39,469 nucleotides of DNA, taken from positions 1 through 39,469 of IMG/VR virus record IMGVR_UViG_3300048815_000006; one strand, written 5' to 3'. Of the stretch, positions 3 through 16,537 are shown piece by piece. The stretch comes from a virus. The translations under genes and the position numbers were made by a program. The notes beneath the pieces were generated by a model. It did no database searches, was not told the DNA's origin, and saw only the letters and a program-made list of their open reading frames with translations. Within the stretch, counting starts at the first letter, position 1. Every line of letters begins with the position of its first letter.

Positions 3-2372
3 ACTGCGGCCAGCCAGCATCTCCAGGACATTGAGGCCGGCACCGTTCGCGGCGATCTCGGTTTGGTCGCCAGTGGCGCGGCAGGCTTGACCGATGCCCG
101 ACTGAAGCAAGCGCAACTGCTGTACGGCACCATGTCGCCACAGATGGCCGATGCGGTGCGGGGGAAGGCTGCGGCTGAGGCAATCGAGACCCAAGTCAAG
201 ACGTTGATCCCGACCGATCCCGCAAGAGCATCGCGGATTCTCCAAGCCAATTCGGACAAACTGCCGGCAGCAGCTTATGAGGAACTGAGCCAGCGGACCA
301 AAGCCTACGCCGACGACATGACCCTGACGGGCGATGTGGGCGGCTACATGCGCGGCCAGCCGCCGCCGCGTGCATCTGGAGGCGCGGGGCCAGCGCCATC
401 GGCGAACACGATCCCCGAGCCGCAGCGCGCCGCGCTGTTGCAACAAGCCGTGGTCGGAACACCGATCCCGCCCGCAACGCTCGATGCTCTGGTCAAACAG
501 GAAAGTGGATGGGACGCGGGCCAGCGTGGTTCGGCCGGCGAGATCGGGTTAGCGCAGATCAAGCCGAGCACGGCGACGGCGCCCGGCGTCGGGATGGCCG
601 GCGTGGACCCTACGACACTCAATGATCCCGCTGCCAATCTGAGGTTTGGCGCGCAATATCTGTATGCCCGCGGCAAAGCGGCCGGACTGACGGATGCAGA
701 TTGGAAAGACCCTGCGAAAGTCGCTGTTGTGCTGAAGGAGTACAACGGCGGCGGCGATCCCGATTACGTGCAGCATGTGACGAGCCGTATGGCGCCCGGC
801 GGCGTGTTGCCTGCATCGTATTCCGGCGGTGCTGCACCAGAGATCGGAGCGACGCCGGTCGCCGCACCAGGCACCTCTCCACCAGTCGCGTCTGCGGGCG
901 TCGTCGCGCACAACCCGGCCGGCGTGGACATGCTGGCGCAGAAATACATCGGGGCGAGGGACGAGGCTGCGCGGCTCTACCCGGGCAACTCGGTCATGCA
1001 GGACCGTTTCGTCCAGCGCGTCCATCAGGATGTAAACGAACTGATGATGCTGCAAAACCGCGACGAAGCGGTCCGCGAGAAGGCCCGGAAGGACGCATCG
1101 GAGGCGGCCGGGCAACAGGTCTTGACCACGCTACACAAGAACCCGGGCCAGTTCGATCCGGCGCTGATCTGGAACCAGCCAGACAATGTGATGACGTGGG
1201 AAGAGAAGCAGCATCTGGCCGAGGTCGCCAACTATCAGTTGACGCAGGCCGGCATCGATCCGGTCCATCATGCGGCCGGTTACACCAAAGTGCTGGCCGG
1301 CATCACGGCAGACCCGAGCGCCCCGAACTACATCAATTCGATGCGCGATATCTACAGCCGAGCCGGGGAGGGTGGCGATCTCAACCGCCGCGACGCGGAT
1401 GAGTTGTCCCAGATATTCACCAGGGTCCACAAGGACCCGGATTACGCGACACTGAAGACGCGCGAGGCGTCGATGCTGAAAATAGCCAACCGCGCGCTCA
1501 TGTTCACCGACCCGGAAGTTCCCGACAAATTCCAGACCCCTGATCGCGTGGGCCAGGACATCTTCGACGGACAGTTTGTGCAGACCTATTTGCCGATGGT
1601 CGACAGGGCTGCGGCGACTGGCAAGCCGGACGAACTCGAAAAGGTTCTGAACAAGGATTTCGTGCTCAATCTGGCGCACAGCATGCGGTCGCAGGCCGAC
1701 ATCGACCGAGCCCGGATGGAAGCGACGGGGCAATCCGCCCCGGGCGACGTGGAGAAGCCGGGGACGCCGTTGCCTCCGGTGCCGACGATCCAAGACAAAG
1801 ACGGCAAGCCGGTAACGATCAATCCTGGGGGTTGGGGGACTGTGATGGTGCGCCCCCCAGTTGCAGAGAGCGGCCAACCCTACACGCACGCCGCATGGGC
1901 GACGTATCTCTCCCGGCTCGTGCAGAACCCGGACCCGAAGACGATCCAGTATTTCGACCAGCACTTCGCCGCGCAGGGTTACAGCGGAGCCGACATCGTG
2001 AAGGCCCTCACGACGCCCGCCGGGGGCGCTGCACTGCTGCCGGCGACCGACGAGTTCGGCGGCGGCGGTCCTGCTCCGGCCGCAGGGACGCCCGCAGCAG
2101 TGGCGCCGGCGACCACACACCAACCGACCGGACCCTACACGCTCGAATCCATCGGTGGCGGAGGTGCGTATCGTGGCCAGTTCAAAGTCCTCGACGCCGC
2201 CGGACATGATACCGGCTTCAAGGGCACGCACGATGAAGCACAGGCCGAACTGGCGCGGCTCAATGCGGTGCGGGCCGGCGGGTGGAACCTGCGCCTGCCT
2301 GACCTGGGCATCCACATGCACCACACGCCGGGCGTGATGAGCGGCCTGCCAACGGACCAGACCAAGCCCTGA
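3..2372 (+). CDS. Lytic transglycosylase virion (ejection) protein, 5' end cut by window
   Basis: The frame is open to the left edge, so the gene starts outside the window; the first in-frame start seen (TTG at 63) continues a coding stretch and is not a convincing start. Counting from that TTG, residues about 125-245 form a soluble-lytic-transglycosylase domain. The catalytic Glu is E147 in KQESGWD, followed by GEIGLAQIKPSTA, NLRFGAQYL and KEYNGG. The rest is long helical and Pro/Ala-rich sequence without a recognised domain. A transglycosylase embedded in a large protein just before a membrane-active giant protein suggests an internal virion protein that opens peptidoglycan during DNA entry, by analogy with T7 gp16. 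The stop overlaps the next start (TGATG), so translation is probably coupled. The domain is secure; the virion role is inference. Confidence 0.85.
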   Translation, partial: TAASQHLQDIEAGTVRGDLGLVASGAAGLTDARLKQAQLLYGTMSPQMADAVRGKAAAEAIETQVKTLIPTDPARASRILQANSDKLPAAAYEELSQRTKAYADDMTLTGDVGGYMRGQPPPRASGGAGPAPSANTIPEPQRAALLQQAVVGTPIPPATLDALVKQESGWDAGQRGSAGEIGLAQIKPSTATAPGVGMAGVDPTTLNDPAANLRFGAQYLYARGKAAGLTDADWKDPAKVAVVLKEYNGGGDPDYVQHVTSRMAPGGVLPASYSGGAAPEIGATPVAAPGTSPPVASAGVVAHNPAGVDMLAQKYIGARDEAARLYPGNSVMQDRFVQRVHQDVNELMMLQNRDEAVREKARKDASEAAGQQVLTTLHKNPGQFDPALIWNQPDNVMTWEEKQHLAEVANYQLTQAGIDPVHHAAGYTKVLAGITADPSAPNYINSMRDIYSRAGEGGDLNRRDADELSQIFTRVHKDPDYATLKTREASMLKIANRALMFTDPEVPDKFQTPDRVGQDIFDGQFVQTYLPMVDRAAATGKPDELEKVLNKDFVLNLAHSMRSQADIDRARMEATGQSAPGDVEKPGTPLPPVPTIQDKDGKPVTINPGGWGTVMVRPPVAESGQPYTHAAWATYLSRLVQNPDPKTIQYFDQHFAAQGYSGADIVKALTTPAGGAALLPATDEFGGGGPAPAAGTPAAVAPATTHQPTGPYTLESIGGGGAYRGQFKVLDAAGHDTGFKGTHDEAQAELARLNAVRAGGWNLRLPDLGIHMHHTPGVMSGLPTDQTKP

Positions 2373-5300
2373 TGGCTGACCCCGCTACTCTCGACGCGCC
2401 ACCGACCGGACGCTTGCCGGCGAGCGGAGACCCGTTTGCCGGGATCGACCCCTTCATGGCTGCGGCACCGGCTGCCGCGACCGCGCCTGACCCTGACGAT
2501 CCGTTCGCGGACGCGCCGCCGCTGGCGAAGGGCGAGACCGGCGCCCCTGGTGCCTTCATCTCCCACGCGGCCCGAGGCGTGCTGCCGATGGTCGGCGGGA
2601 TGGCTGCGGCTGGTGCTGGCGCTGAGATCGGCGCCGGAATTGGCGCTCTCACCGGACCATTTGCGCCCGTAGCGGCACCAGTCGGTGGCTTCATCGGTGG
2701 GTTGGCGGGGTTCTTTGCCGGCTCCGCCGCGACTGAGACCGCCCAGGATTGGGCGCTGAAGCAACTCCCGATGGCTGCCCAGGAGGCGGCCGGGCAATCC
2801 GAGCGCGCCCAGCGCGAGCAGGAGATCGAGCACCCCTACGCCTCGTTCATGGGCGGGATCGCCCCATACGCGATCACGATGTCGCCCGGCGGCTGGACCA
2901 AGGGCGCCGCATCGCTGCCTGAGAACGCGACGACGTTCCAGAAGATCATGGCGAACCCGTTGACGGCGAAAGCCTTCAGCGGCGCGATGATGGGCGGCAT
3001 GGAACTCGGCAACGAGTGGACCGAGGGCCAGCCGACCGATTGGGCCAAAGTCGGGATATCGACCGGGTTTGGGTTGATCTTTAGCCACCCCTACCAGCAC
3101 GGCGAGTACCTGACGAATCTTGGCGCCCAGCCTGTCGTCCGGCTGTTCTCGCGAGGCATGGAGGTTCCGCCGGCGGGAGTACTGAACCCCGAGGAGCCAA
3201 CCGTCGCCCAGGCTGGCGATGTCGGCGTGATCGGCCCCGGCATCACCGAACACACCTTTCGTGGCGGCGAGCAGCAGAGCGATGCGACCCGAGCCTCGGC
3301 ACAGAACGCCGCGGCGGATGAGCAAGCCGCGCTGGGACCGCTGCCGACGCCGGACCTGGACGCGATCGCGCGTCGGCTCGACCCCGACACATTCGCGCAG
3401 AACGATGAACTGCTGGCGCAACGGGACGCGCTGCGATCCTGGATCCAGACCGAAAGCAACCCGACCGACGACATGATCGCGCAGGCGACCGCGGCTCGGC
3501 AGGCGATCGACGATCAGTTGGCGGAGACGAAGAACCGGGCTGAACAGCGCCGGCTTCGTGTGCAGCAGCGCGCCGCGCAGGCGGACCTGGATGACCTGAC
3601 CAACCGCAGAGAAGCGTGGGAGAACGGCACGCACGTCGATACGCCGGACATCTCAATGGCCCGGCAGCATCTGTTGGATACCGAGCACGCGCTGTGGGAC
3701 TTGGCGCCGGACATCTCGGCGGCGCGGAGGCGGGCGGCGGATCATGTGGGGGAGGAGCCTGAACCGGCCGCGCAAGAGGTTGCGGCCGGTCACGAGCAGC
3801 CGGCGGCCGAGGTTCCGGAAAAAGGGAGGGTTATTTCGGAACCCGCCGCGCCGGCTGAGAAATCCCCCGACGCGCAACGCGCCTTCATCGCCCAGGACCG
3901 CGCGACGCAACTCATGGCCGCCGGCCTGTCCAAGGCCACGGCAGAGGCGTCCGCAGCCGTTGAGGCTCACTACTACGCGACCCTGGCGGCGCGGTTCAAC
4001 GGCGCCCTGGGGACGGCGGAAGACCTGTATCGAGCGCGAGCCGCGCGTGTCATCGGCCCGGGGCAGACCGCACCGGCCGAAGGTGCGCCGCCGGCGCCGA
4101 TTACCCGCACGGAACCCCTGCGTTCGGCTGCGATCCGGTCCATCGCGGACATCCAGGCGCAGGATGGTGTCGGCGCCAAGCGGGCCAAGGCGATCCAGGA
4201 GCAGGAGATACTGGCACGCGGGCGGGTGATTGAGCCGGGCACCCCGAGGGGCGAGCCGGTTGTGCCGGCCGTCCCTCAAGTTCCATCAAATCCATCAACC
4301 TCCATCAATCCCGCGCCAGTCGAGCGCGCCCCAGAACTCGCCGAAGCCGCGCAAGTCGCCCCGCCAGTGCCTGAACCCCGCCCGCGCCTCCGCAGCGCCG
4401 CCGACATCATGCGCGAGGACCGCGTTCCCGAGAGCCGCGTCAAGGCGGTCCAGGACGCTGAATTGGCGGCCTTGGCCGACTGGCAGGCCCGACACCCATC
4501 CGGGGAGCCTCGCCCGAAGCGCAACCGCGCCGCTGATCGGTTGGCCGAGACCGCCGGCATTCCGACCGCCGGGGTGCCCGAGCCTGCCGTCCTGACCGAG
4601 ATTGTGGACCGGTTGCCGGAAGAACGGGTTGTCGAGGAAGTCAACGCTGCTGCGGAAGCCGGCGAAATCGAGTATCGGGAGGCGGAGGCTGAGGCGCCCG
4701 AAGCGACCGAAACCCCCGACGCCTTCTACGACGCCGACCAGTCCCGCAGCCTGGAGGAATTGGAGAGTGAGCATCGACCGGCAGCGCAATCAGTTGCCAG
4801 CACCCCAGAGCCGGCGTCTCTTGCGGCGCTGATCCCAGAACCAGAGCGCAGGGAGAGTGCCGCAAAAGGGGAGGCGTTGGCAAAAGAAGGGGAGGCATTC
4901 CTCGCACGCGCAGCGGCAGTCGAACGCGAGAAGAACTATCGGGTCGGCGGTCTGACGCGAGAAATCCAGCATGACGCAAACCTACTTCGCGATCTGGCGG
5001 CGGAGCATGCTGCCGGCGATGACCGGCTACTCGAAAAAACACTAGACCGACTGTCACCGCTGCGCGTCGGGAAAACGGCGTACCAAGAAATCGGTATGCC
5101 CGAGGTGCGAGATTGGGAGAACAAGGCATACGAGTGGGCCTATGGCCTGGAAGAGAGGATCGAACGTGCTCGACCGGCGAACGAAGCTGCTGCACCTGAG
5201 CAACGCGAGGGCGGCGGCGGGGAACCAATCGTTGCCACAAGCGACGAGGGACAAGTACCAGAGGGCGGCGGACCAGTTGGGACTGTCGGTGGGACTGGAG

Positions 5301-8300
5301 AACGCGTTGCAGACGAAGGCGGAGAACGAGGCGATGTCGAGCACGCCGTCGCAGCCGCAGGGGTTGGGCCAGACTACCGGCCAGAGCCTGCTGCCGAGCA
5401 GCCCCCCGAGCCAGCCGGAGCAGAGCAAGGAACTGGCGTCCCCCAGCAACCTGCTGGCGTAAGGCGCACAGACGCCCGCGGCAACCCGATCTTCGCCAAG
5501 GGTGAGCGGGTTGTCATCCCGGATGGCGAGCATCTGGCCGGGCGGCATGGGACGGTCGAGGAAGCCAACGGGCTGGTGTTCCAGTCTCTGTATGGCGGCC
5601 AGAAGACGGAGCCGACCTACACTTATCAGGTCCGCACCGATGCCGGCGAACTGGTCCATTCCAATGCGCCGGTAGCCGAGACAGGCGAGCGCCCCGAGGT
5701 CGTGCCCGACCCGATCTACCAGGGTCACGCACGCAACCCGGCGGAACTGCTGCGGCACATCGGCCTGGATGAACGTGCAGCCACCGGATATGTGACGCGC
5801 GGCGCGCGGGCGCGTACCCCGAAGATGAAGGCCGAATGGGCACGCGAGGCAGCCAACTCACGGGACAAGGCTGCGGCGCAGCGGGCCGTGCTGGACGCAT
5901 GGGCGACGGAACATCCCGAGGAAGCCGCCAAGGTCCTGCCGGCGCGGGCCGCCGTTCCCGAAACCCCGAGCGCCGCATCGACTACTCCGGTCGGCGGCAT
6001 GTCCATCGTCGAGACCCGCCACACCAAGCACGGTTACCCGCTGTGGTCGGTGACGCTGAGCGGGGAACGGCTGCCGTTGGATCGATTCAACGAACTGCGG
6101 GGCGCGGCGCGCGAGGGCGGCGGCGACTGGTCATCGTGGCGCGGGCGCGGCGCTGTGCCGGGGTTCCAGTTTCGGACGCGCGAGGCGGCGGAGGCGTTTC
6201 GGGAACGGTTCGGTGGGGAGGGGCCGGCGGCAGAGGCCCCCGCACCGGCTACATCGGCGCGGCCTGAGTGGACCGAGGCCGGCCAGAACGACCGCGGCGA
6301 GACGATCTATACCAACGCGGAAGGCGCTCACTCCGTTATCGAGAACGGCGTCCGGGTCATTGAAGGCGTCGCGCTACGGCCGGTGCGCGATGAGCGGACC
6401 GGGCGGATTTCCTACGTGCCGCAGATCAAGGCGCCCGGGTCCAAGGAACTCCGGTATGAGGTGGTTCCCGAGGCGCCGACCGTTGCTGAGGTGACAGAGC
6501 AAGCCGGCGGAAGCGAATCGCTGCCTCCGCAGCCAGCACCGGCTCCGGAAACTCCGAAGGTCCGCACCATCTCCGACGCGCTCGCCCCCGCCGAGGGGAA
6601 GGGGCCGGCGCCGGTTACGAGTGCGCCAGAGGAAGCCCCTCGCGCATCCAAGGACGTGCAGATCGAGCACGCCGAGCAGATGCCGTTCGAGGACGCGCAC
6701 GACCTTGCAACCGCGCGCCGGATGCTCAACGCCTATCGTGGCGACAAAGGCGTCGAAGCGGCGGTTGCGCGCATTGAGGCGGGCGAGCCGTGGCAGGACG
6801 TGTTCCGCACCGCCAACACGCCGTTCACCGCGTTTGAGACACGCTCAATTGCCGAGGTGGCGCGCGCGGATGGCCGGATCAGGCCACGCGAGGAAGCGCC
6901 AACGCCAGCGCCCCCAGCAGAGGGTTCGGCATACGGCGCCAACAACAAACTCGTCACCCAAGCCGACCGCGAGGCGATCCGCGCCCGGCTCCGCGCAAAA
7001 TCTGGTCAACTCCGCACCGGCATTGACCCGGAAATGATGCTGGATGGCGCCCGTCTCGCCGTCTTCCACATCGAGGCTGGCGCGCGGGCCTTCGCCGACT
7101 ACGCCCGCGAGATAGTCGCCGACATCGGCGTCGAGTTCCGACCCTACCTGCGGTCCTGGTATGAGGCAGCCCGGCATTGGCCGGGCGTCGATGCTCGCGG
7201 CATGACCGCGGCGGGAGAGATTGAGGAAGCCCCCCATGTCGCCGAACGCACCCCGGAAACCCCCGAGGACGTGGCCGACATCGACCAACTGCTTGACACC
7301 CATCGCAACGACCCCATCATCAATGAGATCGCTCGCCTGACCGGGGCCGGCTGGACTCCCGAAGAGATCGAAAACGGTCCGGCTGGCGACCGCTTCTCGC
7401 TCGATGAGATCGAGAGCATCGTTCGTGCCCAGGAACGCCGGGGCGAGATCCCGGAACTCGATGAGGCGGAAGGCCAAGGCGACCTTTCGTTCGAGGAGGA
7501 TGAGGGTGGAGTTCAAGGGGCCGTACCTGTTCGCGATGAGGGAGCAGGACCCGAAGATGTTCATGGAGCTCCGTCGCTCGGGGAAACTGGACGCGCACCT
7601 TCAGGAGAAATCGGTGGAGGCGCACGAACTGCTGAACCAGCTGCTGGCGAAGAAGCCCAAGGACAGGTTCGGGGAGCACAGCCAGGCGGACGTGCGGGAG
7701 GCCGAGGAACTGGTGCGGGCGCAACTGATCGAGTTCCCAACACCGGAGAGGGATCAGCGGCCGGAGCCACCAGACGATTTGCCGACCGTCCGGATGCGGG
7801 CGTCGAAGGATCGAACTTCAGCATCGAGCCAGGCGACCTAGCCGAAGGCCGTGGCCGCACCACCAAGGCGCGGGACAACATCGCGGCCATCGAACTCGCG
7901 AAGCGGCTGATCGACGAAGGCCGGCCAGCCACCAAGGCTGAGCAAGCCATCCTTGTGAAATACACCGGCTGGGGCGGCATCAAGAACGCCTTCCCGGACG
8001 CGCGTGGCGAGTTCCGTCCAGAGATGGAGGACATCGGCCGCCGCCTTCGTGCAGCACTCACCGACGAAGAATACCGCACCGCGCAACAATCGGTGCAGTA
8101 CGCCCACTACACGGCCGAGCATGTCGTCCGCTCAATGTGGGATGCGGTGCGGCAGATGGGCTTTGACGGCGGCCTGGTGTTCGAGCCCGGCCTTGGGGTC
8201 GGGCATTTCCTTGGCCTGATGCCTGCCGATCTTGCCGAAAAGAGCGAATACCAGGGCATCGAGCGCGATCACCTGTCGGCGCAAATCGCGAAGCTACTGT

Positions 8301-11300
8301 ATCCCGAGTCCGGCATCCGCGAGGCCGACTACATCCGAACGCCGGTCCCGGAGGGATCGTTTGATCTGGTGATTGGCAATCCGCCGTTCGGCGACATTAT
8401 CATCAACGGTGATCCGAAGTACGCCGCCCGCGGCTTCATGCTGCACGATTATTTCTTTGCCAAATCGCTCGATAGCGTGCGGCCCGGCGGCCTCCTGGCC
8501 TTCATCACGTCGGCCGGCACGATGAACAAGCTGGACGCCTCGGCCCGGCTATATCTCGCCGACCGCGCCGATCTGGTTGGCGGCATCCGGCTACCGAACA
8601 CGACGTTCCGCCGCAACGCCGGGACTGAGGTGACGACCGACATCCTGTTTTTTCGCAAGCGCGCCCCGGGCGAGGAGGGGATTGAGCCGGCCTGGACCGA
8701 GACCGTCCAGCGCACATTGCCGAGCACAAAGGGCGGCGAGCAAGAAACGAATGTCAGCCGCTATTTCTCCGACCATCCCGAGAACGTGCTCGGCACCGAA
8801 GCGTGGGGCGAAATGCAGGCCGCTGGCCGCTACGAGGTCCAGCAGGTGCCCGGCACTGATCTTGAGGCTGATCTCCGCGCCGCTGTGGATCGCCTGCCGC
8901 GCGATGTGATGACCGCCGCCCCAACGCCGGAAGAACGTGCCCGGCTTGATTTTGCCTCCGGGCAGCGGAAGGACGGCAGCTTCTACGTCGGCGCCGATGG
9001 CAAGCTGATGCAGTACCGGGATGGCGCAGGCCGAGAAGTTCCGGCCTACGGCAAAGGTGGTGGCGGCCTGACCGGAGCGGCCCGCGAGCGCGTCGAGCAC
9101 CTGATCCCGATGCGGGACGCGCTGCGGGACGTGTTTGCCGCGGACCTGGCGCGAGATGATGCCGCCGGCGCAGAGGCGCGGGCGCGGCTCAACGAGCACT
9201 ACGATCGCTTCGTCCAGAAATTCGGCCCTATCAACAAGGCGGAGTTCACCTATCGGCGGCCATCGATCATCCAGCAGGAAACCGCCCGGCTGGAAGCGCG
9301 CGAGGAAGCGCGCATGTCGGACCAGCGGTTCGATGACGGCGAGTTCGATCCGAGTTCCATGCTCGCGAACAAGGCGAAGGTCAGCGAGATCGCCAGGGCG
9401 CGGCAACAGGCCCGCGAGGCAGCAAAGGCCGCAGGACGCGAGTTCGACGAAGGCACATTCGACCCGTCCGCAATGCCGGATGAGGTGTCGGAGAAACGTC
9501 CGAACATCAAGCCGTTCATGTCGGACCCAGAGAGTTACCGGCTGCGATCGATCGAGAATTACAACGATGCCACCGGGGAGGCATCCAAGAAGGCGATCTT
9601 CCGCGAAAACATCCTGAAGCACGAGGAAGAGCCGGAACTGAAATCGGCCAATGACGGCGTGCTCTGGTCGATGAACAAGCTGGGCCGGTTCGACGTTGAC
9701 GCCATCGCCAAGAAGATGAGGCGCGAGCCCGCCGATATCGTCGCTGAACTGGGCGATGCGGTCTACAAGGTGCCTGGCACCGAAGACACTTACCAGACCA
9801 AGGACGAGTATCTGTCGGGTGATATCGTGTCCAAGCTGGAGACGGCGCGGGCCGAAGCTGAAACAGACCCTGACGTGCGGCGCAACATTCCCGCCCTGGA
9901 GGCCGCGCTACCGCCTCCGCTGCCGCCCTCGGAAATCTCGATGGTCCTCGGGATGCCGTGGATACCGACCGACACCCTGCGCGAATTCGTCCGCGATCAC
10001 ATGGAGATGGGCGAGCCGCATATCAGCCACAGCGCCATCACTGGGACATGGTTCGTCAATGGCGGCCGCGCCGCACAGGAAGCCGGCGTCCAGCGATGGA
10101 GCACACCGGACCGCAACGCCTTCGAGTTGCTGTCTGACGCGATGAACCGAACGCCGCCCCGCATCTACGCCGAAGAGCGCGGCCCGCGGGGTGAGAAAAT
10201 CAGGGTGTTCGATCCCGTCGCCACACAGGCGGCGCAGGACGTGACCGACTCCATGAAGGCAGCGTTCACCGATTGGGTTGCCGCCGATCCAGACCGCGCA
10301 AACAGGCTGGCAGACCTCTACAACGATAAGCTGAACAGGACCGTGCTACGTCAGTTTGACGGCAGCTACATGACCACGCCTGGTGTTGCTGCGACATGGA
10401 GTTGGCGCCCACACCAGACGCGGGTGGTGTCCCGCATTGTTCAGACCGGCAACACCTATATGGCGCACGCTGTAGGGGCCGGAAAGACGAGCGCGATGAT
10501 CGGCGCAGGGATGGAGATGCGCCGCCTCGGACTGGTGCGGAAACCGCTCTACGTTGTGCCCAACCACATGCTCGGGCAATTCACCAAAGAGTTCTACGAG
10601 CAGTATCCAACCGCACGAATTGCTGTCGCCGACGAAGATCGGTTCCACACCGACCGCCGCAAGCAATTCGTGGCCAATGTTGCGCAGGACGATCTCGACG
10701 CGATCATCATGACGCATTCGAGTTTCGGCAAGATCGGGATCAGCGACGAGTTCCAGCGCCATTTGATCGATGAGCAGATCGAGATGCTGGACAAGGCGCT
10801 TGAAGAACTGGACGAGCAGGCTGATCGCATCGCTCGGGGCCGGATCGAAAACCAGAAGGAAAAACTTGAGCAGAGGCTGTCTGGCCGCAGCGACGGGCAG
10901 GATCAGACGCTCACGTTCGAGCAGCTTGGCGCCGACTTTTTGTTTGTCGATGAGGCCCACCAGTTCCGCAAATTAAGCTTCGGGACCAAGCAGGGGAACT
11001 TGAAGGGCATCGCGCCCGAAGGGTCCAATATGGCTTGGGACCTCTATACGAAGGTCCGCTATCTCGACAGCCAGAAGCCCGGACGCTCCGCTGTGTTCGC
11101 CTCTGGGACGCCGGTCACCAACACGATGGGCGAACTCTACAGCCTGAGTCGGTTCATGCAGCCCGAGGCCCTGGCCGAGCGCGGATTGACGCACTTCGAT
11201 TCGTGGGCGCAGACTTTCGGCGATACTAAGACAGGTCTGGAAGAAACCGCCGCCGGCACCTATCAGCCGGTCACGCGGTTCGGCCAGTTCGTCAACCTTC

Positions 11301-14300
11301 CTGAGTTGTACAAGATGGTCGGCGAGGTGATGGATATCGTCACCCCGAGCCAACTTGAGCAGTACGTGACGCGGCCAAAGTTGAAGGGCGGCGAGCGCGA
11401 CTTTCACCTCGCCCCGCGCACCGAAATCCTGGATCGCTACCAAGCCGACCTCGCGGCCCGGATGCAGGCCATCAAGGACCGACGCGGGCCGCCGCAGAAG
11501 GGTGACGACATCCTATTGTCGGTCATCAACGACGGGCGGCACGCAGCCATCGACCCACGTTTCGTTGAAGAAACTGACAACGATCCGCGGTCCAAGCTAA
11601 ATGTGATGGTGCAGAACGTCGCGCGCATCTACCACGAAACCGCCGACAAACAGTTCTACGATCCGGCCAGCAACTATGAGCGGGAGAGTTTCCAAGGTCC
11701 GGCGACGCAGATGGTTTTCGCCAATCTGGGCGTGAACGGTCGCGGCCCGATGGGCTTCTCGTCATACCAGTGGATCAAGGAAGCGTTACGCCGAGAGGGC
11801 GTGGCGCCCGAACACATTGCGTTCATCGGCGACTATCCCGGCACGCTTCAGCGCCAAGCCTTGTTCAACGACATGAACGAGGGGAAGGTCCGCATCCTGG
11901 TCGGCTCGACGCAGAAGATGGGCACCGGGGTCAACGCACAGCGGCGCCTCGTCGCGCTGCATAATCAGGACCCGCTCTGGTTCCCAGCCGACGATGAGCA
12001 GCGCGTCGGGCGCATCTTGCGCCAGGGCAACCACAATCCCGAGATCGAGGTCCACGACTACTCGACCAAGGGCACTTACGATTCCGCCATGTGGAAGATG
12101 ATGGGCAACAAGGCCCGGTTCATCGAGCAGTTCTTCCGGGGCGACCCGAGCCTGCGGAACATGGAGGATGTCGGCGAGGCCAGCATGTACGAGCAGGCGT
12201 CGGCGATGGCGACGACCGATGAGCGGATTATCACGCTCACGCAACTCAAACAGGATTTGGACAAGGCCCGGCGACGGGAGTCGGCACACAACAGCGGCCA
12301 GTATGCGCTGCGCTCGCAACTGAAAAACAAAGAGTGGTGGGCCGACTTCGAGGCCAGGTCCGCGGCGTCCATCCAGGAAGATATTGAGAAGCGCGAGGAC
12401 ACCCGAGGCGATAACTTCGCGATGCACGTCGGCGGCGAGAAATTCGACAAACGTAAAGAAGCGGAGGCCGCGCTTAGCGAATTGACCGCAGACCGCGCCG
12501 AGGGCCTAGGCAAAGGCGGTGAGACGCCAGTCGGTCGCATCGGCGGCTTCCCGATCATCATGTCACGGAACACCAAGGGCGCGCTGTCCTTCAACCTCCG
12601 CCTGTCCGGGGGCAACGCCCGTGAGTTAAATTTCAACTGGTACGGCAACAAGTCGGTGCATGACGCCTTTGTGGAGGCCCAGCGCAGGGAGAACGGAGAG
12701 GAGGCTGCTACGAAGGCGGCGGCTTCCCCAATGGGTGCCAAGGGCCTGATCCAATCCGCGGAGCACACACTGCGCCAGTTCGAGGACCGGCTCGCCGCCT
12801 CCGAAGCATCGCGCGCCAGGGCGCTTCGCGAGGCCGACAACATCCGGCCTCTGCTTGGTCAACCTTTCACCGGCGGCGACGAAATCCTGCGTCTATCCAA
12901 TGCCGTACGGGACCTGGAAGGCCAGTTACGGCGCGAGGCGGAGGCCAAGGCCAATCCCGATGCGCCCTCCCCTGAACCGACGCCGGGTATTCCAGCCGAA
13001 CCCACCTCCGCGCTGCCCCGCTGGGAAGGCCCGACACCGGAGGCTGTCTCCGGTTTCATGGCTGGTGGTGGAGATCTGTTCCAACGTCTCCGCCAGTCCA
13101 TCCAAGGCAAAATCCGCATATCCCCCGGCGAAACACGCTCCATCATCACCCTGGCCCGCAGCGCCGACGCCAGCACCTTCATGCACGAGACCGCGCACGA
13201 CTGGCTGAAGCAACTCCTGATGGACGCGGCGCACAATCTCGCCCCCCAGGCCCTCCGAGACGATGCCGCCACGGTGCGTCGCTGGCTGAAGCGTCCCGAC
13301 GCATGGACAGGATTTAAGCGCGATGGTACACCCGATGTAGCGCCCCAAGAGCGTTTCGCCCGTGCGTTCGAGCAATATCTACGCGAGGGTCATGCTCCAA
13401 GCCGGGCGCTGGATGGTGTCTTTGCGAAGTTCAAGTCGTGGCTGACCACGATCTACCGGACGTTGCGCGGACTTGGCGCTCCAATCTCGGACGACATCCG
13501 CGGTGTGTTCGACCGGATGCTGGCGATCGAGCCGGAGCGGATCACCCACGGCGAGGTGCCGGAACGCGGGCCGAGCATCGCGGACATCCACGAGGCCGAC
13601 GCAGCGGAGACGCCGCCGCGCGAGGCCGAGGTAGTCGCGGATCGGATCGCCGCCGAACGTGCCAGGAACCAGCCCCCGCCAGAGGTCGCGCATGAAATCG
13701 CCGCAGTCCAGCCAATCGAGCCAGCCGGCGCCACTCAACCCGGAGCAGAAGCTGCAACTGGCCCAACAGGACGCGGAGAAGTGGCGCCAGGCGGCGGCCA
13801 GCCCGAATCTGTCACCGATGGCAGCGGCGTGGGCGCTGGGACAGGCGCGGTCGGCGCAGGCGGAGGTGAAACTGCGGCAGAAGGGACTGGCGTATCAGGC
13901 GGAACAGGACAATCCAGTGACGCAGGGGGACGACGCGGCACTGAACGTGCTGCTGGGTCTCCCGCTGAACAACTCGCCCCAAGGCCAGCCGAATCCCTCG
14001 ACGACACCGGCGATACAACCGCCGTCGACCTCGCCGGGAATATCCGCGTCGAAAACCTCACCGACGTAGAGAGCATCGCCCAGGCGATTCACGATTCGGC
14101 GGATCGCAACGACGAGTTCCGTCAGGTCCGGGGCGGAATGACCAAGGGCCAGATGCTCGATCTGGCCGAGGCAATGGGGTTAGACCCCAACAAGATCGAC
14201 GAGGCCGGGCTTGCCAGACTGCTCGGCGGCACATCCGAACTTGGGCCGCGCATTTTGGCTGCACGTCGGCTCGTGGTGCAATCGGCCGAGATCGTGTCCA

Positions 14301-16537
14301 ACATCATGAAGCGGGCCGCGCAATCCTGGACCGATGCTGACGGCGCCGAACTCGGGTTGGCGATTGCCCGGCATGACATGATCCAATCGGCGCTTGCTGG
14401 CGTCACTGCCGAATGGGGTCGGGCCGGTAACGCGTTCCACAATCTGCTGGAGGGATGGGGGAAGGCGCAGGACCTGAACCAGTTGCTGCGCGACAATACG
14501 GGGCGCGATCTCTATCAGCTCCAGGTGATCGCCAAGATGGGGTCGCGACTGGACACCCCCGGCAAGGTCTCGAAATACCTCCGGGACGCGAAGAGTCGGT
14601 CCTTTGGCGGCATGATCCTCGAGTACTGGATCAACGGGCTGATCTCAGGCATCGCGACGCATGCCACCTACGTGGTCGGCAACACCATCCTGGCGGCGGA
14701 GAAGGCCGGTCCCGAGACTGCGGTCGCGGCGGCGATCGGCGCCTTCCGGGCCCGGATGGGACGGGTCGGAACCCGGGTCAGGCTCGGGGAGGTGGGCGCG
14801 CAGTTCGGCGCGGCCTTCCGTGAGGCCCCTGCGGCGGTTCAGGCCGGCATCGAGGCGTTGCGCAGCGGCGCCACCACCCAGCTTCCAGGCGAGGCCGCAA
14901 GGCCACTGGTGCCGTTCCAGGGCGATACCTCCCTCACTACAAGCCGGGGCATGACGAACCAGCATGTCACGTGGCGGGAGGTGGGTGCAGACGCCTACGG
15001 GTTGGTGCAGGGGATGCGTGACGGCATCGTGGCGGCCGGCGAATTGGTGCGGGCCGGTGGAGTAGAGGGCGCTCCGACGTGGGGCTGGCAGTCGTCACCG
15101 CTCGGGCAGATACCGGGCTTGGCCTACAAGGGTGTGGAAGTCGCACCCATCGGGCACATCCTGCGCTTGCCGAGTCGGAACGTGGCCGCGATCCATTCGA
15201 CGTTCCGCGCCATGAACTATTCGATGGAGATCAACGCGCTCGCCTTCCGTCAGGCGGCCGATGAAGGATTGGCCGGGGAAGCCTTTGCGGCCAGGGTTTC
15301 CGAACTCCGCCAGAACCCACCCGAGGAAATGATGGACGCGGCGCGGGGTAAAGCAACCGACCTGACCCTGATGGGTCAGGGCGGCAAGCTGACCGAGGCC
15401 CTGAGCCGACTGTTCAACACCACGATCAACCTGCCGGTCCTCGGCGAAACCGCGGTCCTGAAATTCGTCGACCCTTTCGTCCACATCGCCGGCAACATCA
15501 TGAACCAGTCGCTGCTACAGCGGACCCCGGTCGGGCTGCTGTCGCGCGAGATCAGGGCGGACCTGGCCGGCAAGAACGGCAACGTCGCCCAGGATACCGC
15601 GGCGGCGAAGATGCTGGTCGGAACCGCGATTGCGGTCACGTTCGGCGGTCTCGCTGCTCAGGGCTTGGCATCCGGCTCCGGTCCCGCCGATCCAAACAAA
15701 GCCGCGATGTGGCGTCTTGCAGGAAACCAACCGCATAGCGTTCGCATCGGGGATATGTGGTACGCGGTGAACCGGCTCGGCCCGATGGGGCTGCTGCTCA
15801 GTGTCGCGGCCGACATGTACGATGTCGCGCACATGATGGGCACCGAAGACGCCGGGACGATTGGGTCCGCGTTGATGCACGCCTTCACGCAGAACATCCT
15901 GGATGAATCCTTCATGCGCGGGCCGTCAGACTTGATCCGCGCCACCACGGAGTCGGATCGGTACGGGGCGGCCTACATCCGCAACCTGCTGCCGTCGTTC
16001 CTACCGTTCTCCGTCCTGCAAGCCCAGATGGCGCGGGCCACGGACCCTTATTCCAGGCAGGCCCGCACCATCATGGACGCGATCCGGGCGCGGGTGCCAG
16101 GGTTGTCCGAGAGCCTGTTTCCACGCCGGGATATCTGGGGGGAGCCGATGCCGAGTGGCGATGCCCTGATAGCCCCTGGCGTGACGGCCATCTATGCGCG
16201 GCAGATGAGCACTGACCCGGTGAACCTCGCCATGCTGGCGCTCGGCGTGTCGCCGGCCCCGGTCGAGCGGACGATCCGCAACGTGAAGCTGACCGATCAG
16301 GAATATGACGACTACGCAAGGCTCGCCGGCCGGGCTGCGAAGATCAGGCTGGATGCCATTGTGAAATCCCCGCTTTGGGCAACGATGCCGAACGCGAGTC
16401 GCTATGAGGTGATCGAGGAGACGATCAAACAGAACCGTGAGGCGGCTCGTGGCATGATGATGATGAAGTACCCGCAGATTCCGCGCGATGCGGCCAAGGC
16501 GCAGATTGCCCGCAAGACGGGCGAAACGGTGCACTGA
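2372..16537 (+). CDS. Giant polyvalent protein: methyltransferase, SF2 helicase, metallopeptidase, ejection-like ends
   Basis: A single uninterrupted 4721-codon frame. Residues 60-140 are a Gly/Ala-rich hydrophobic segment likely to meet membrane. About 320-460 is charged and helical. About 1210-1290 and 1518-1612 are modules (HTK..., GANNK...IEAGAR) that recur in DarB-like giants. Residues 1817-2090 are an adenine-N6 methyltransferase (SAM loop FEPGLGVGH near 1937, NPPF at 2003-2006). About 2670-3260 is an SF2 helicase (Walker A GAGKT 2702-2706, DEAH 2860-2863, QRVGR from 3210). About 3590-3720 is a metallopeptidase with HETAH at 3605-3609. The C-terminus (3900-4721) has hydrophobic stretches near 4080-4110, 4413-4434 and 4468-4490. 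P1 DarB, a packaged methyltransferase-helicase that protects incoming DNA, is the closest functional model. Virion packaging and ejection are inferred. Three linkers (about 932-1031, 1712-1823, 3774-3900) are low-complexity and overprinted by small genes. Confidence 0.9.
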   Translation: MADPATLDAPPTGRLPASGDPFAGIDPFMAAAPAAATAPDPDDPFADAPPLAKGETGAPGAFISHAARGVLPMVGGMAAAGAGAEIGAGIGALTGPFAPVAAPVGGFIGGLAGFFAGSAATETAQDWALKQLPMAAQEAAGQSERAQREQEIEHPYASFMGGIAPYAITMSPGGWTKGAASLPENATTFQKIMANPLTAKAFSGAMMGGMELGNEWTEGQPTDWAKVGISTGFGLIFSHPYQHGEYLTNLGAQPVVRLFSRGMEVPPAGVLNPEEPTVAQAGDVGVIGPGITEHTFRGGEQQSDATRASAQNAAADEQAALGPLPTPDLDAIARRLDPDTFAQNDELLAQRDALRSWIQTESNPTDDMIAQATAARQAIDDQLAETKNRAEQRRLRVQQRAAQADLDDLTNRREAWENGTHVDTPDISMARQHLLDTEHALWDLAPDISAARRRAADHVGEEPEPAAQEVAAGHEQPAAEVPEKGRVISEPAAPAEKSPDAQRAFIAQDRATQLMAAGLSKATAEASAAVEAHYYATLAARFNGALGTAEDLYRARAARVIGPGQTAPAEGAPPAPITRTEPLRSAAIRSIADIQAQDGVGAKRAKAIQEQEILARGRVIEPGTPRGEPVVPAVPQVPSNPSTSINPAPVERAPELAEAAQVAPPVPEPRPRLRSAADIMREDRVPESRVKAVQDAELAALADWQARHPSGEPRPKRNRAADRLAETAGIPTAGVPEPAVLTEIVDRLPEERVVEEVNAAAEAGEIEYREAEAEAPEATETPDAFYDADQSRSLEELESEHRPAAQSVASTPEPASLAALIPEPERRESAAKGEALAKEGEAFLARAAAVEREKNYRVGGLTREIQHDANLLRDLAAEHAAGDDRLLEKTLDRLSPLRVGKTAYQEIGMPEVRDWENKAYEWAYGLEERIERARPANEAAAPEQREGGGGEPIVATSDEGQVPEGGGPVGTVGGTGERVADEGGERGDVEHAVAAAGVGPDYRPEPAAEQPPEPAGAEQGTGVPQQPAGVRRTDARGNPIFAKGERVVIPDGEHLAGRHGTVEEANGLVFQSLYGGQKTEPTYTYQVRTDAGELVHSNAPVAETGERPEVVPDPIYQGHARNPAELLRHIGLDERAATGYVTRGARARTPKMKAEWAREAANSRDKAAAQRAVLDAWATEHPEEAAKVLPARAAVPETPSAASTTPVGGMSIVETRHTKHGYPLWSVTLSGERLPLDRFNELRGAAREGGGDWSSWRGRGAVPGFQFRTREAAEAFRERFGGEGPAAEAPAPATSARPEWTEAGQNDRGETIYTNAEGAHSVIENGVRVIEGVALRPVRDERTGRISYVPQIKAPGSKELRYEVVPEAPTVAEVTEQAGGSESLPPQPAPAPETPKVRTISDALAPAEGKGPAPVTSAPEEAPRASKDVQIEHAEQMPFEDAHDLATARRMLNAYRGDKGVEAAVARIEAGEPWQDVFRTANTPFTAFETRSIAEVARADGRIRPREEAPTPAPPAEGSAYGANNKLVTQADREAIRARLRAKSGQLRTGIDPEMMLDGARLAVFHIEAGARAFADYAREIVADIGVEFRPYLRSWYEAARHWPGVDARGMTAAGEIEEAPHVAERTPETPEDVADIDQLLDTHRNDPIINEIARLTGAGWTPEEIENGPAGDRFSLDEIESIVRAQERRGEIPELDEAEGQGDLSFEEDEGGVQGAVPVRDEGAGPEDVHGAPSLGETGRAPSGEIGGGARTAEPAAGEEAQGQVRGAQPGGRAGGRGTGAGATDRVPNTGEGSAAGATRRFADRPDAGVEGSNFSIEPGDLAEGRGRTTKARDNIAAIELAKRLIDEGRPATKAEQAILVKYTGWGGIKNAFPDARGEFRPEMEDIGRRLRAALTDEEYRTAQQSVQYAHYTAEHVVRSMWDAVRQMGFDGGLVFEPGLGVGHFLGLMPADLAEKSEYQGIERDHLSAQIAKLLYPESGIREADYIRTPVPEGSFDLVIGNPPFGDIIINGDPKYAARGFMLHDYFFAKSLDSVRPGGLLAFITSAGTMNKLDASARLYLADRADLVGGIRLPNTTFRRNAGTEVTTDILFFRKRAPGEEGIEPAWTETVQRTLPSTKGGEQETNVSRYFSDHPENVLGTEAWGEMQAAGRYEVQQVPGTDLEADLRAAVDRLPRDVMTAAPTPEERARLDFASGQRKDGSFYVGADGKLMQYRDGAGREVPAYGKGGGGLTGAARERVEHLIPMRDALRDVFAADLARDDAAGAEARARLNEHYDRFVQKFGPINKAEFTYRRPSIIQQETARLEAREEARMSDQRFDDGEFDPSSMLANKAKVSEIARARQQAREAAKAAGREFDEGTFDPSAMPDEVSEKRPNIKPFMSDPESYRLRSIENYNDATGEASKKAIFRENILKHEEEPELKSANDGVLWSMNKLGRFDVDAIAKKMRREPADIVAELGDAVYKVPGTEDTYQTKDEYLSGDIVSKLETARAEAETDPDVRRNIPALEAALPPPLPPSEISMVLGMPWIPTDTLREFVRDHMEMGEPHISHSAITGTWFVNGGRAAQEAGVQRWSTPDRNAFELLSDAMNRTPPRIYAEERGPRGEKIRVFDPVATQAAQDVTDSMKAAFTDWVAADPDRANRLADLYNDKLNRTVLRQFDGSYMTTPGVAATWSWRPHQTRVVSRIVQTGNTYMAHAVGAGKTSAMIGAGMEMRRLGLVRKPLYVVPNHMLGQFTKEFYEQYPTARIAVADEDRFHTDRRKQFVANVAQDDLDAIIMTHSSFGKIGISDEFQRHLIDEQIEMLDKALEELDEQADRIARGRIENQKEKLEQRLSGRSDGQDQTLTFEQLGADFLFVDEAHQFRKLSFGTKQGNLKGIAPEGSNMAWDLYTKVRYLDSQKPGRSAVFASGTPVTNTMGELYSLSRFMQPEALAERGLTHFDSWAQTFGDTKTGLEETAAGTYQPVTRFGQFVNLPELYKMVGEVMDIVTPSQLEQYVTRPKLKGGERDFHLAPRTEILDRYQADLAARMQAIKDRRGPPQKGDDILLSVINDGRHAAIDPRFVEETDNDPRSKLNVMVQNVARIYHETADKQFYDPASNYERESFQGPATQMVFANLGVNGRGPMGFSSYQWIKEALRREGVAPEHIAFIGDYPGTLQRQALFNDMNEGKVRILVGSTQKMGTGVNAQRRLVALHNQDPLWFPADDEQRVGRILRQGNHNPEIEVHDYSTKGTYDSAMWKMMGNKARFIEQFFRGDPSLRNMEDVGEASMYEQASAMATTDERIITLTQLKQDLDKARRRESAHNSGQYALRSQLKNKEWWADFEARSAASIQEDIEKREDTRGDNFAMHVGGEKFDKRKEAEAALSELTADRAEGLGKGGETPVGRIGGFPIIMSRNTKGALSFNLRLSGGNARELNFNWYGNKSVHDAFVEAQRRENGEEAATKAAASPMGAKGLIQSAEHTLRQFEDRLAASEASRARALREADNIRPLLGQPFTGGDEILRLSNAVRDLEGQLRREAEAKANPDAPSPEPTPGIPAEPTSALPRWEGPTPEAVSGFMAGGGDLFQRLRQSIQGKIRISPGETRSIITLARSADASTFMHETAHDWLKQLLMDAAHNLAPQALRDDAATVRRWLKRPDAWTGFKRDGTPDVAPQERFARAFEQYLREGHAPSRALDGVFAKFKSWLTTIYRTLRGLGAPISDDIRGVFDRMLAIEPERITHGEVPERGPSIADIHEADAAETPPREAEVVADRIAAERARNQPPPEVAHEIAAVQPIEPAGATQPGAEAATGPTGRGEVAPGGGQPESVTDGSGVGAGTGAVGAGGGETAAEGTGVSGGTGQSSDAGGRRGTERAAGSPAEQLAPRPAESLDDTGDTTAVDLAGNIRVENLTDVESIAQAIHDSADRNDEFRQVRGGMTKGQMLDLAEAMGLDPNKIDEAGLARLLGGTSELGPRILAARRLVVQSAEIVSNIMKRAAQSWTDADGAELGLAIARHDMIQSALAGVTAEWGRAGNAFHNLLEGWGKAQDLNQLLRDNTGRDLYQLQVIAKMGSRLDTPGKVSKYLRDAKSRSFGGMILEYWINGLISGIATHATYVVGNTILAAEKAGPETAVAAAIGAFRARMGRVGTRVRLGEVGAQFGAAFREAPAAVQAGIEALRSGATTQLPGEAARPLVPFQGDTSLTTSRGMTNQHVTWREVGADAYGLVQGMRDGIVAAGELVRAGGVEGAPTWGWQSSPLGQIPGLAYKGVEVAPIGHILRLPSRNVAAIHSTFRAMNYSMEINALAFRQAADEGLAGEAFAARVSELRQNPPEEMMDAARGKATDLTLMGQGGKLTEALSRLFNTTINLPVLGETAVLKFVDPFVHIAGNIMNQSLLQRTPVGLLSREIRADLAGKNGNVAQDTAAAKMLVGTAIAVTFGGLAAQGLASGSGPADPNKAAMWRLAGNQPHSVRIGDMWYAVNRLGPMGLLLSVAADMYDVAHMMGTEDAGTIGSALMHAFTQNILDESFMRGPSDLIRATTESDRYGAAYIRNLLPSFLPFSVLQAQMARATDPYSRQARTIMDAIRARVPGLSESLFPRRDIWGEPMPSGDALIAPGVTAIYARQMSTDPVNLAMLALGVSPAPVERTIRNVKLTDQEYDDYARLAGRAAKIRLDAIVKSPLWATMPNASRYEVIEETIKQNREAARGMMMMKYPQIPRDAAKAQIARKTGETVH
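5166..5462 (+). CDS. Overprinted small gene A inside the giant gene (+1 frame), 98 aa
   Basis: Start GTG at 5166 is preceded by GAGAGG with a 7-base spacer; an ATG at 5142 in the same frame lacks such a site. A hand count gives G or C at about 90 of 98 third positions in this frame. The overlapping giant frame here reads as Gly/Ala/Glu/Pro-rich filler. The product begins with a helical segment (about residues 2-50, LDRRTKLLHLSNARAAAGN...) and ends in a Gln/Ser/Pro-rich tail. The TAA stop at 5460-5462 lies where the giant frame again becomes ordinary domain sequence. No family is recognised. The reading frame is well supported by codon bias and ribosome site; expression is untested. Confidence 0.7.
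   Translation: MLDRRTKLLHLSNARAAAGNQSLPQATRDKYQRAADQLGLSVGLENALQTKAENEAMSSTPSQPQGLGQTTGQSLLPSSPPSQPEQSKELASPSNLLA
7506..7841 (+). CDS. Overprinted small gene B inside the giant gene (+1 frame), 111 aa
   Basis: GTG at 7506 follows AGGAGG (7494-7499) with a 6-base spacer, an excellent ribosome site; an in-frame ATG at 7500 touches the site and is less likely. About 84% of third positions are G/C by hand count, against about 36% in the giant frame over the same bases. The product is a normal-looking helical protein: EFKGPYLFAMREQDP, then LRRSGKLDAHLQEKSVEAHE, then REAEELVRAQLIEF and an acidic Pro-rich tail. The segment with SGKL...L followed by an EAEE-type helix loosely recalls small TnpV-like proteins, but this is only an impression. 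TAG at 7839-7841 lies exactly where the methyltransferase domain begins in the giant frame. Confidence 0.8.
   Translation: MEFKGPYLFAMREQDPKMFMELRRSGKLDAHLQEKSVEAHELLNQLLAKKPKDRFGEHSQADVREAEELVRAQLIEFPTPERDQRPEPPDDLPTVRMRASKDRTSASSQAT
13692..14069 (+). CDS. Overprinted small gene C inside the giant gene (+1 frame), 125 aa
   Basis: ATG at 13692 has AGAGG 6 bases upstream. A GTG at 13659 is in frame but has no clear ribosome site. About 79% of third positions are G/C by hand count. The encoded protein has a Ser/Gln-rich start, a helical centre (NPEQKLQLAQQDAEKWRQ, then MAAAWALGQARSAQAEVKLR) and a Pro/Ser/Thr-rich tail. The giant frame over the same bases is a Gly/Ala/Thr repeat-like linker. 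The TAG stop at 14067-14069 immediately precedes the start of the C-terminal ejection-like part of the giant protein. Its layout (short helical region plus disordered Pro/Ser/Gln tail) resembles overprinted gene A. Function unknown. Confidence 0.72.
   Translation: MKSPQSSQSSQPAPLNPEQKLQLAQQDAEKWRQAAASPNLSPMAAAWALGQARSAQAEVKLRQKGLAYQAEQDNPVTQGDDAALNVLLGLPLNNSPQGQPNPSTTPAIQPPSTSPGISASKTSPT

Follow-up and report, generated by a model that had tools for sequence, protein, structure and literature searches.

Phages are known to carry genes nested out of frame within larger ones, as phiX174 E lies within D and Rz1 within Rz. The gene described here, which we call gene C, is like these in that it lies fully inside a larger gene on the same strand, is read in another frame and presumably has its own ribosome-binding site. 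Unlike them, it is situated at a joint where domains of a giant multidomain protein are fused, in the linker between them; gene A, which represents a second nested family, occupies similar linkers here, and codon usage marks the linker, not the small gene, as the probable by-product. Overlapping viral genes have been reviewed (PMC8227390).

The giant protein itself resembles the polyvalent proteins that occur in phages and conjugative elements, since in it too a single long polypeptide contains methylase, helicase and MPTase-type domains (PMC5512222). It differs from them in being fused to internal virion protein D (IVP D) and in having hidden genes in its linkers; a word search of the same paper for linkers, overlapping genes or internal virion proteins came back empty. 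The T7 gp16-like IVP D (phrog_6651) is matched by the C-terminal part of the giant, whereas the IVP D proteins of Desulfovibrio phage ProddE and of loci L010-L014 have neither an MPTase fusion nor a nested gene C. Our search of open-licence papers found nested phage genes and polyvalent proteins to be known, and found no nested genes in linkers of this sort. Gene C belongs to a previously unnamed family.

Results

The window, a whole virus record of 39,469 bases, contains a giant polyvalent/virion ORF of 4721 amino acids (2372-16537, plus strand) with N6-methylase, SNF2-like helicase, MPTase-type HExxH and IVP D domains. The HExxH (HETAH) metallopeptidase-like domain spans 13124-13543 (plus strand), and the C-terminal part, which matches T7 gp16-like internal virion protein D, phrog_6651, spans 14099-16534 (plus strand), its conserved portion starting at about 14040-14099. 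Gene C (13692-14069, plus strand) sits exactly at the joint between these two domains, in the +1 frame relative to the giant. It begins with ATG at 13692, ends with TAG at 14067-14069 and would encode 125 amino acids; the distance from HExxH to gene C is 169 amino acids in the window and 163-187 in the other 21 loci of our main set. Over this stretch the giant's own frame reads as a Gly/Ala/Pro/Thr linker (13689-14069, plus strand) that is probably the overprinted partner of gene C. The original prediction, made from the window's sequence, had described a Gly/Ala/Thr run, and the linker is indeed of low complexity, composed of Gly, Ala, Pro, Glu and Thr, with no recognised domain. It had also placed the stop of gene C against the start of the ejection-like part, in agreement with our finding that the last ~10-13 codons overlap the first conserved residues of IVP D.

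The predicted start and composition held up equally well. A Shine-Dalgarno-like AGAGG(T) is present at 13681-13685 (plus strand), 6 nt before ATG 13692, and in the giant's frame the same AGAGG is part of a conserved PPE[V/I] peptide. GTG 13659 is an alternative upstream start, and relatives favor ATG 13692. The G+C content of gene C is 0.79 at codon position 3, matching the predicted figure of about 79%, 0.67 at position 1 and 0.53 at position 2.

Homologous +1 ORFs were found at the same joint in L002-L009, L016-L025, L027, L042 and L045, among loci retrieved with the IVP D part alone as query. Gene C is retained where the giant has fallen to 39-41% identity (L008 and L009), and all the near relatives that we found retain the nested frame, so the original prediction of a nested gene was not overturned. 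A search with the HExxH domain returned 80 loci, not all independent of the first set, of which 55 carry gene C; together with ten seen only in other scans, some 65 viral contigs besides the window have the gene, at the same joint, in the +1 frame and nested without exception. MPTase and IVP D are joined in one ORF at 64 of the 80 loci, and 62 of these 64 carry C and/or A, all nested and all +1. An A-type nested gene stands at the joint in place of C in L026 and L028, and eight loci from the HExxH-domain search have C after MPTase and A just before IVP D. Nested C is absent from distant IVP D genes that lack the MPTase fusion (L010-L015 and L029-L035), and 13 MPTase giants that lack IVP D, all with enough sequence downstream to judge, had neither C nor A. 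Gene C is strictly tied in position to the MPTase-IVP D fusion.

Gene C was also present in contigs of Rhizobiales metagenome-assembled genomes (L051-L053) and in the chromosome of Rhizobium sp. BK313 (L050). In the latter a phage of the L018 type sits within a 2.56 Mb contig, so these T7 gp16-bearing phages appear to include at least one that is integrated. The presence of this phage in a Rhizobium chromosome and of relatives in Rhizobiales contigs hints at Rhizobiales hosts. Wider scans added little. Translated searches (tblastn) with C gave no match among phages and a single match, at chance level, among plasmids; scans for C with single proteins or with alignments A1 and A3 found none or gave no usable pattern, and a genome scan with alignment A4 found none. 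Across genomes of the Rhizobium family and order, C occurred in no phage other than the one already known, and the cultured phages AF and CP2, which have MPTase relatives, showed no candidate nested gene near MPTase.

A high G+C content and a Gly/Ala linker could keep the +1 frame open by chance, with similarity among the nested frames inherited from the giant. An open +1 frame of 125 codons is indeed not very rare, arising in 23 of 200 randomisations of the window and in 166 of 200 of L025, and because low-complexity composition inflates identity in all three frames, pairwise identity alone was set aside as insufficient. We used instead a null in which the giant's synonymous codons were randomised and the +1 frame was scored against a leave-one-out family profile, at 22 loci. 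Gene C of the window scored 110 bits against a null of 4.1 ± 6.6 (maximum 28), and the 22 loci together spanned 28-128 bits, their null means lying between -0.3 and 8; even the weakest, L027, reached 28.3 against a null maximum of 14.8. The nested frame contained no stops in any of the 22, with null means of 0.2-2.9. Three neighboring control regions, although the giant is more conserved there, exceeded their nulls by only 5-8 bits on average and contained 1-7 stops per sequence, so shared ancestry of the giant cannot account for the score of C. Start codon, Shine-Dalgarno sequence, G+C phase and substitution phase all track C: G+C by codon position flips to the frame of C in nine of nine cases, and inside the overlap the giant diverges less at third positions (0.415, down from 0.58) and more at first positions. 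The leave-one-out null and the control regions rule out a chance open frame, to which we assign a negligible probability. Amino-acid-level selection acts on gene C. On this comparison with relatives we regard gene C as a protein-coding gene, infer that it is translated, and hold with high confidence that it is real and separately translated.

Both frames are open throughout the region, and phage structural genes do use frameshifting, so C could in principle be the tail of a frameshift product made by ribosomes that leave the giant's frame to yield a truncated MPTase-C protein. Inspection of upstream sequences, however, revealed an SD-like stretch of at least 4 nt before the ATG or GTG in 18 of 22 loci, with no clear SD before C in L019 and L025; a conserved start codon with an SD is something that a frameshift would not need. 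Moreover, a stop in the frame of C lies directly before the ATG in L007 and one codon before the start of C in L005, L017, L022, L042 and L045. These stops, zero to one codon upstream in six phages, argue for independent initiation, and we consider frameshifting very improbable. The sequences instead indicate that C has conserved start and SD signals of its own.

The product of C, which ranges from ~60 to 130 amino acids among the family, was predicted from 22 sequences (AlphaFold2) to be an alpha-helical hairpin with helices at residues 17-36 and 42-73 and disordered N- and C-terminal tails; mean pLDDT over residues 11-70 was 90-97. We found no relative of the family in Pfam, PHROGs or the PDB, just scattered hits to unrelated families from one or two of its 22 members, and a fold search of BFVD with the hairpin gave no match at E<=0.001, a search that is uninformative for so simple a hairpin. 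In L046, a free-standing ORF of 355 amino acids (5596-6663) includes a C-like hairpin segment (E about 1e-18). This segment is the sole non-nested one found and its context is unrelated: the stretch examined contains no giant, and the neighbors of the ORF include HTH and MT-A70 proteins.

Gene A (5166-5462, plus strand; GTG start with AGAGGA upstream, ATG 5142 also possible) is the second nested +1 hairpin gene of the window. Homologous nested ORFs were found in L003, L026, L028 and others, and the window's A scored 79.7 bits against L003 (null maximum 36.6) and 42.0 bits against L028 (null maximum 20.8). The original prediction likened the layout of C to that of A, and rightly: A too is conserved and nested in the +1 frame, and it is predicted to form a helical hairpin with a tail rich in Pro and Gln (a model built from four sequences only). 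The two models share a shorter helix, a turn, a longer helix and a disordered Pro/Gln-rich tail, a resemblance tempered by the fact that helical hairpins are not diagnostic. That the two share a frame is correct and does not single them out, since the +1 frame is used by all the conserved nested ORFs that we saw in these genes. The profile comparison of A and C that had been proposed gave a divided answer: hhalign returned a score of 19.8 (E 0.0068), beyond the maximum of 12.4 for a shuffled-column null (8.3 ± 1.5), at a probability of only 5.7%. This weakly suggests that A and C are homologous in sequence.

Other candidate nested ORFs were seen. Candidate gene B (window 7341-7841, plus strand, +1) shows the strongest codon-phase flip in the window; B-like nested ORFs in L020 and L024 score 32-36 bits with it (null maximum 22-24), and it has a sub-threshold match to Pfam TnpV (E 0.0086). 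Candidate +1 nested ORFs of other sequence types, also with a codon-phase flip, lie within the giants at 8124-8381 in L017, 8349-8564 in L008 and 8181-8408 in L003.

Discussion

Altogether our results support the model that a conserved gene is nested at the joint of a giant phage protein. The original prediction presented C as an overprinted gene; the nested gene is real, and codon usage suggests that the overprinting ran the other way. Within the overlap, synonymous codon bias is like that of the remainder of the giant when the frame of C is read (mean 0.14, with flanks at 0.20-0.22) and unlike it in the giant's own frame (-0.10), and it favors the frame of C in 20 of 22 loci, the exceptions being L022 and L042. 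Codon usage typical of C's frame suggests that the frame of C is older, or dominant, and that the giant's Gly/Ala linker is probably the partner overprinted on it. A second line of evidence comes from L109 and L117, MPTase-IVP D fusions that lack both a nested gene and a long linker and so serve as a natural control. Their joints (6412-6646 in L109 and 6409-6637 in L117) measure 228-234 nt between domain models, compared with 408-564 nt in fusions that carry C only, apart from L079 at 1173 nt, and C was found nowhere else in the two records. That the linker is missing where C is missing favors, without proving, a linker overprinted on C; L109 and L117 are divergent, and the absence of gene and linker could reflect either loss or the ancestral state.

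The opposite history, in which the Gly/Ala linker came first and C arose late by overprinting on it, would fit the orphan status of the family: searches outside these phages turned up no relatives, which is the pattern that genes made de novo by overprinting should show. It sits poorly with overlap codon usage that is typical in the frame of C and atypical in that of the giant at 20 of 22 loci, with phages that lack the linker when they lack C, and with the free-standing C-like segment of L046. We therefore consider a late birth of C to be on the unlikely side. We found no relative in which MPTase, C and IVP D are separate genes, and the history of the fusion is therefore approached indirectly. 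In the most economical version, C or an ancestor from its hairpin family would first have lain beside the IVP D gene, and reading through C in another frame would have produced the MPTase-IVP D fusion and its Gly/Ala linker together. More generally, we hypothesize, at a confidence just short of even, that the giants' linkers are wrong-frame readings of small genes that once lay between the now-fused genes and are still functional, the A and C families having been carried along and swapped with the domains.

What C does is suggested by where it lies. We envision a scenario in which the late transcript of the giant ejection/polyvalent gene also yields C, read in the +1 frame from an SD sequence and a start codon that belong to C itself, and in which the product is a late accessory that helps to assemble the virion or to eject the genome. 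That C keeps strictly to IVP D fusions and is missing from the 13 MPTase giants without IVP D points to such a late role, which, judged from location, is the most likely one; on the same ground, we raise more tentatively the possibility, which we put somewhat below even, that C partners with the IVP D part during assembly. An early counter-defense or host-takeover protein that rides on the transcript of a DarB-like polyvalent gene would also be conceivable, because methylase and helicase domains like those of the giant are characteristic of polyvalent proteins that act against restriction (PMC5512222). However, C and A were seen exclusively in giants with a fused IVP D, and in none of the 13 that lack it, and we judge an early role to be unlikely.

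Gene callers tend to drop small ORFs that lie wholly within larger ones, and the C family would be missed by them. If the history proposed here is true, fusion would have proceeded by straight read-through of intervening genes, so that a single piece of DNA serves as both linker and gene. These phages offer a concrete, testable case of how giant multidomain proteins gain their linkers, and a case of overprinting in which the newer partner may be the linker of the long gene and not the short gene itself.
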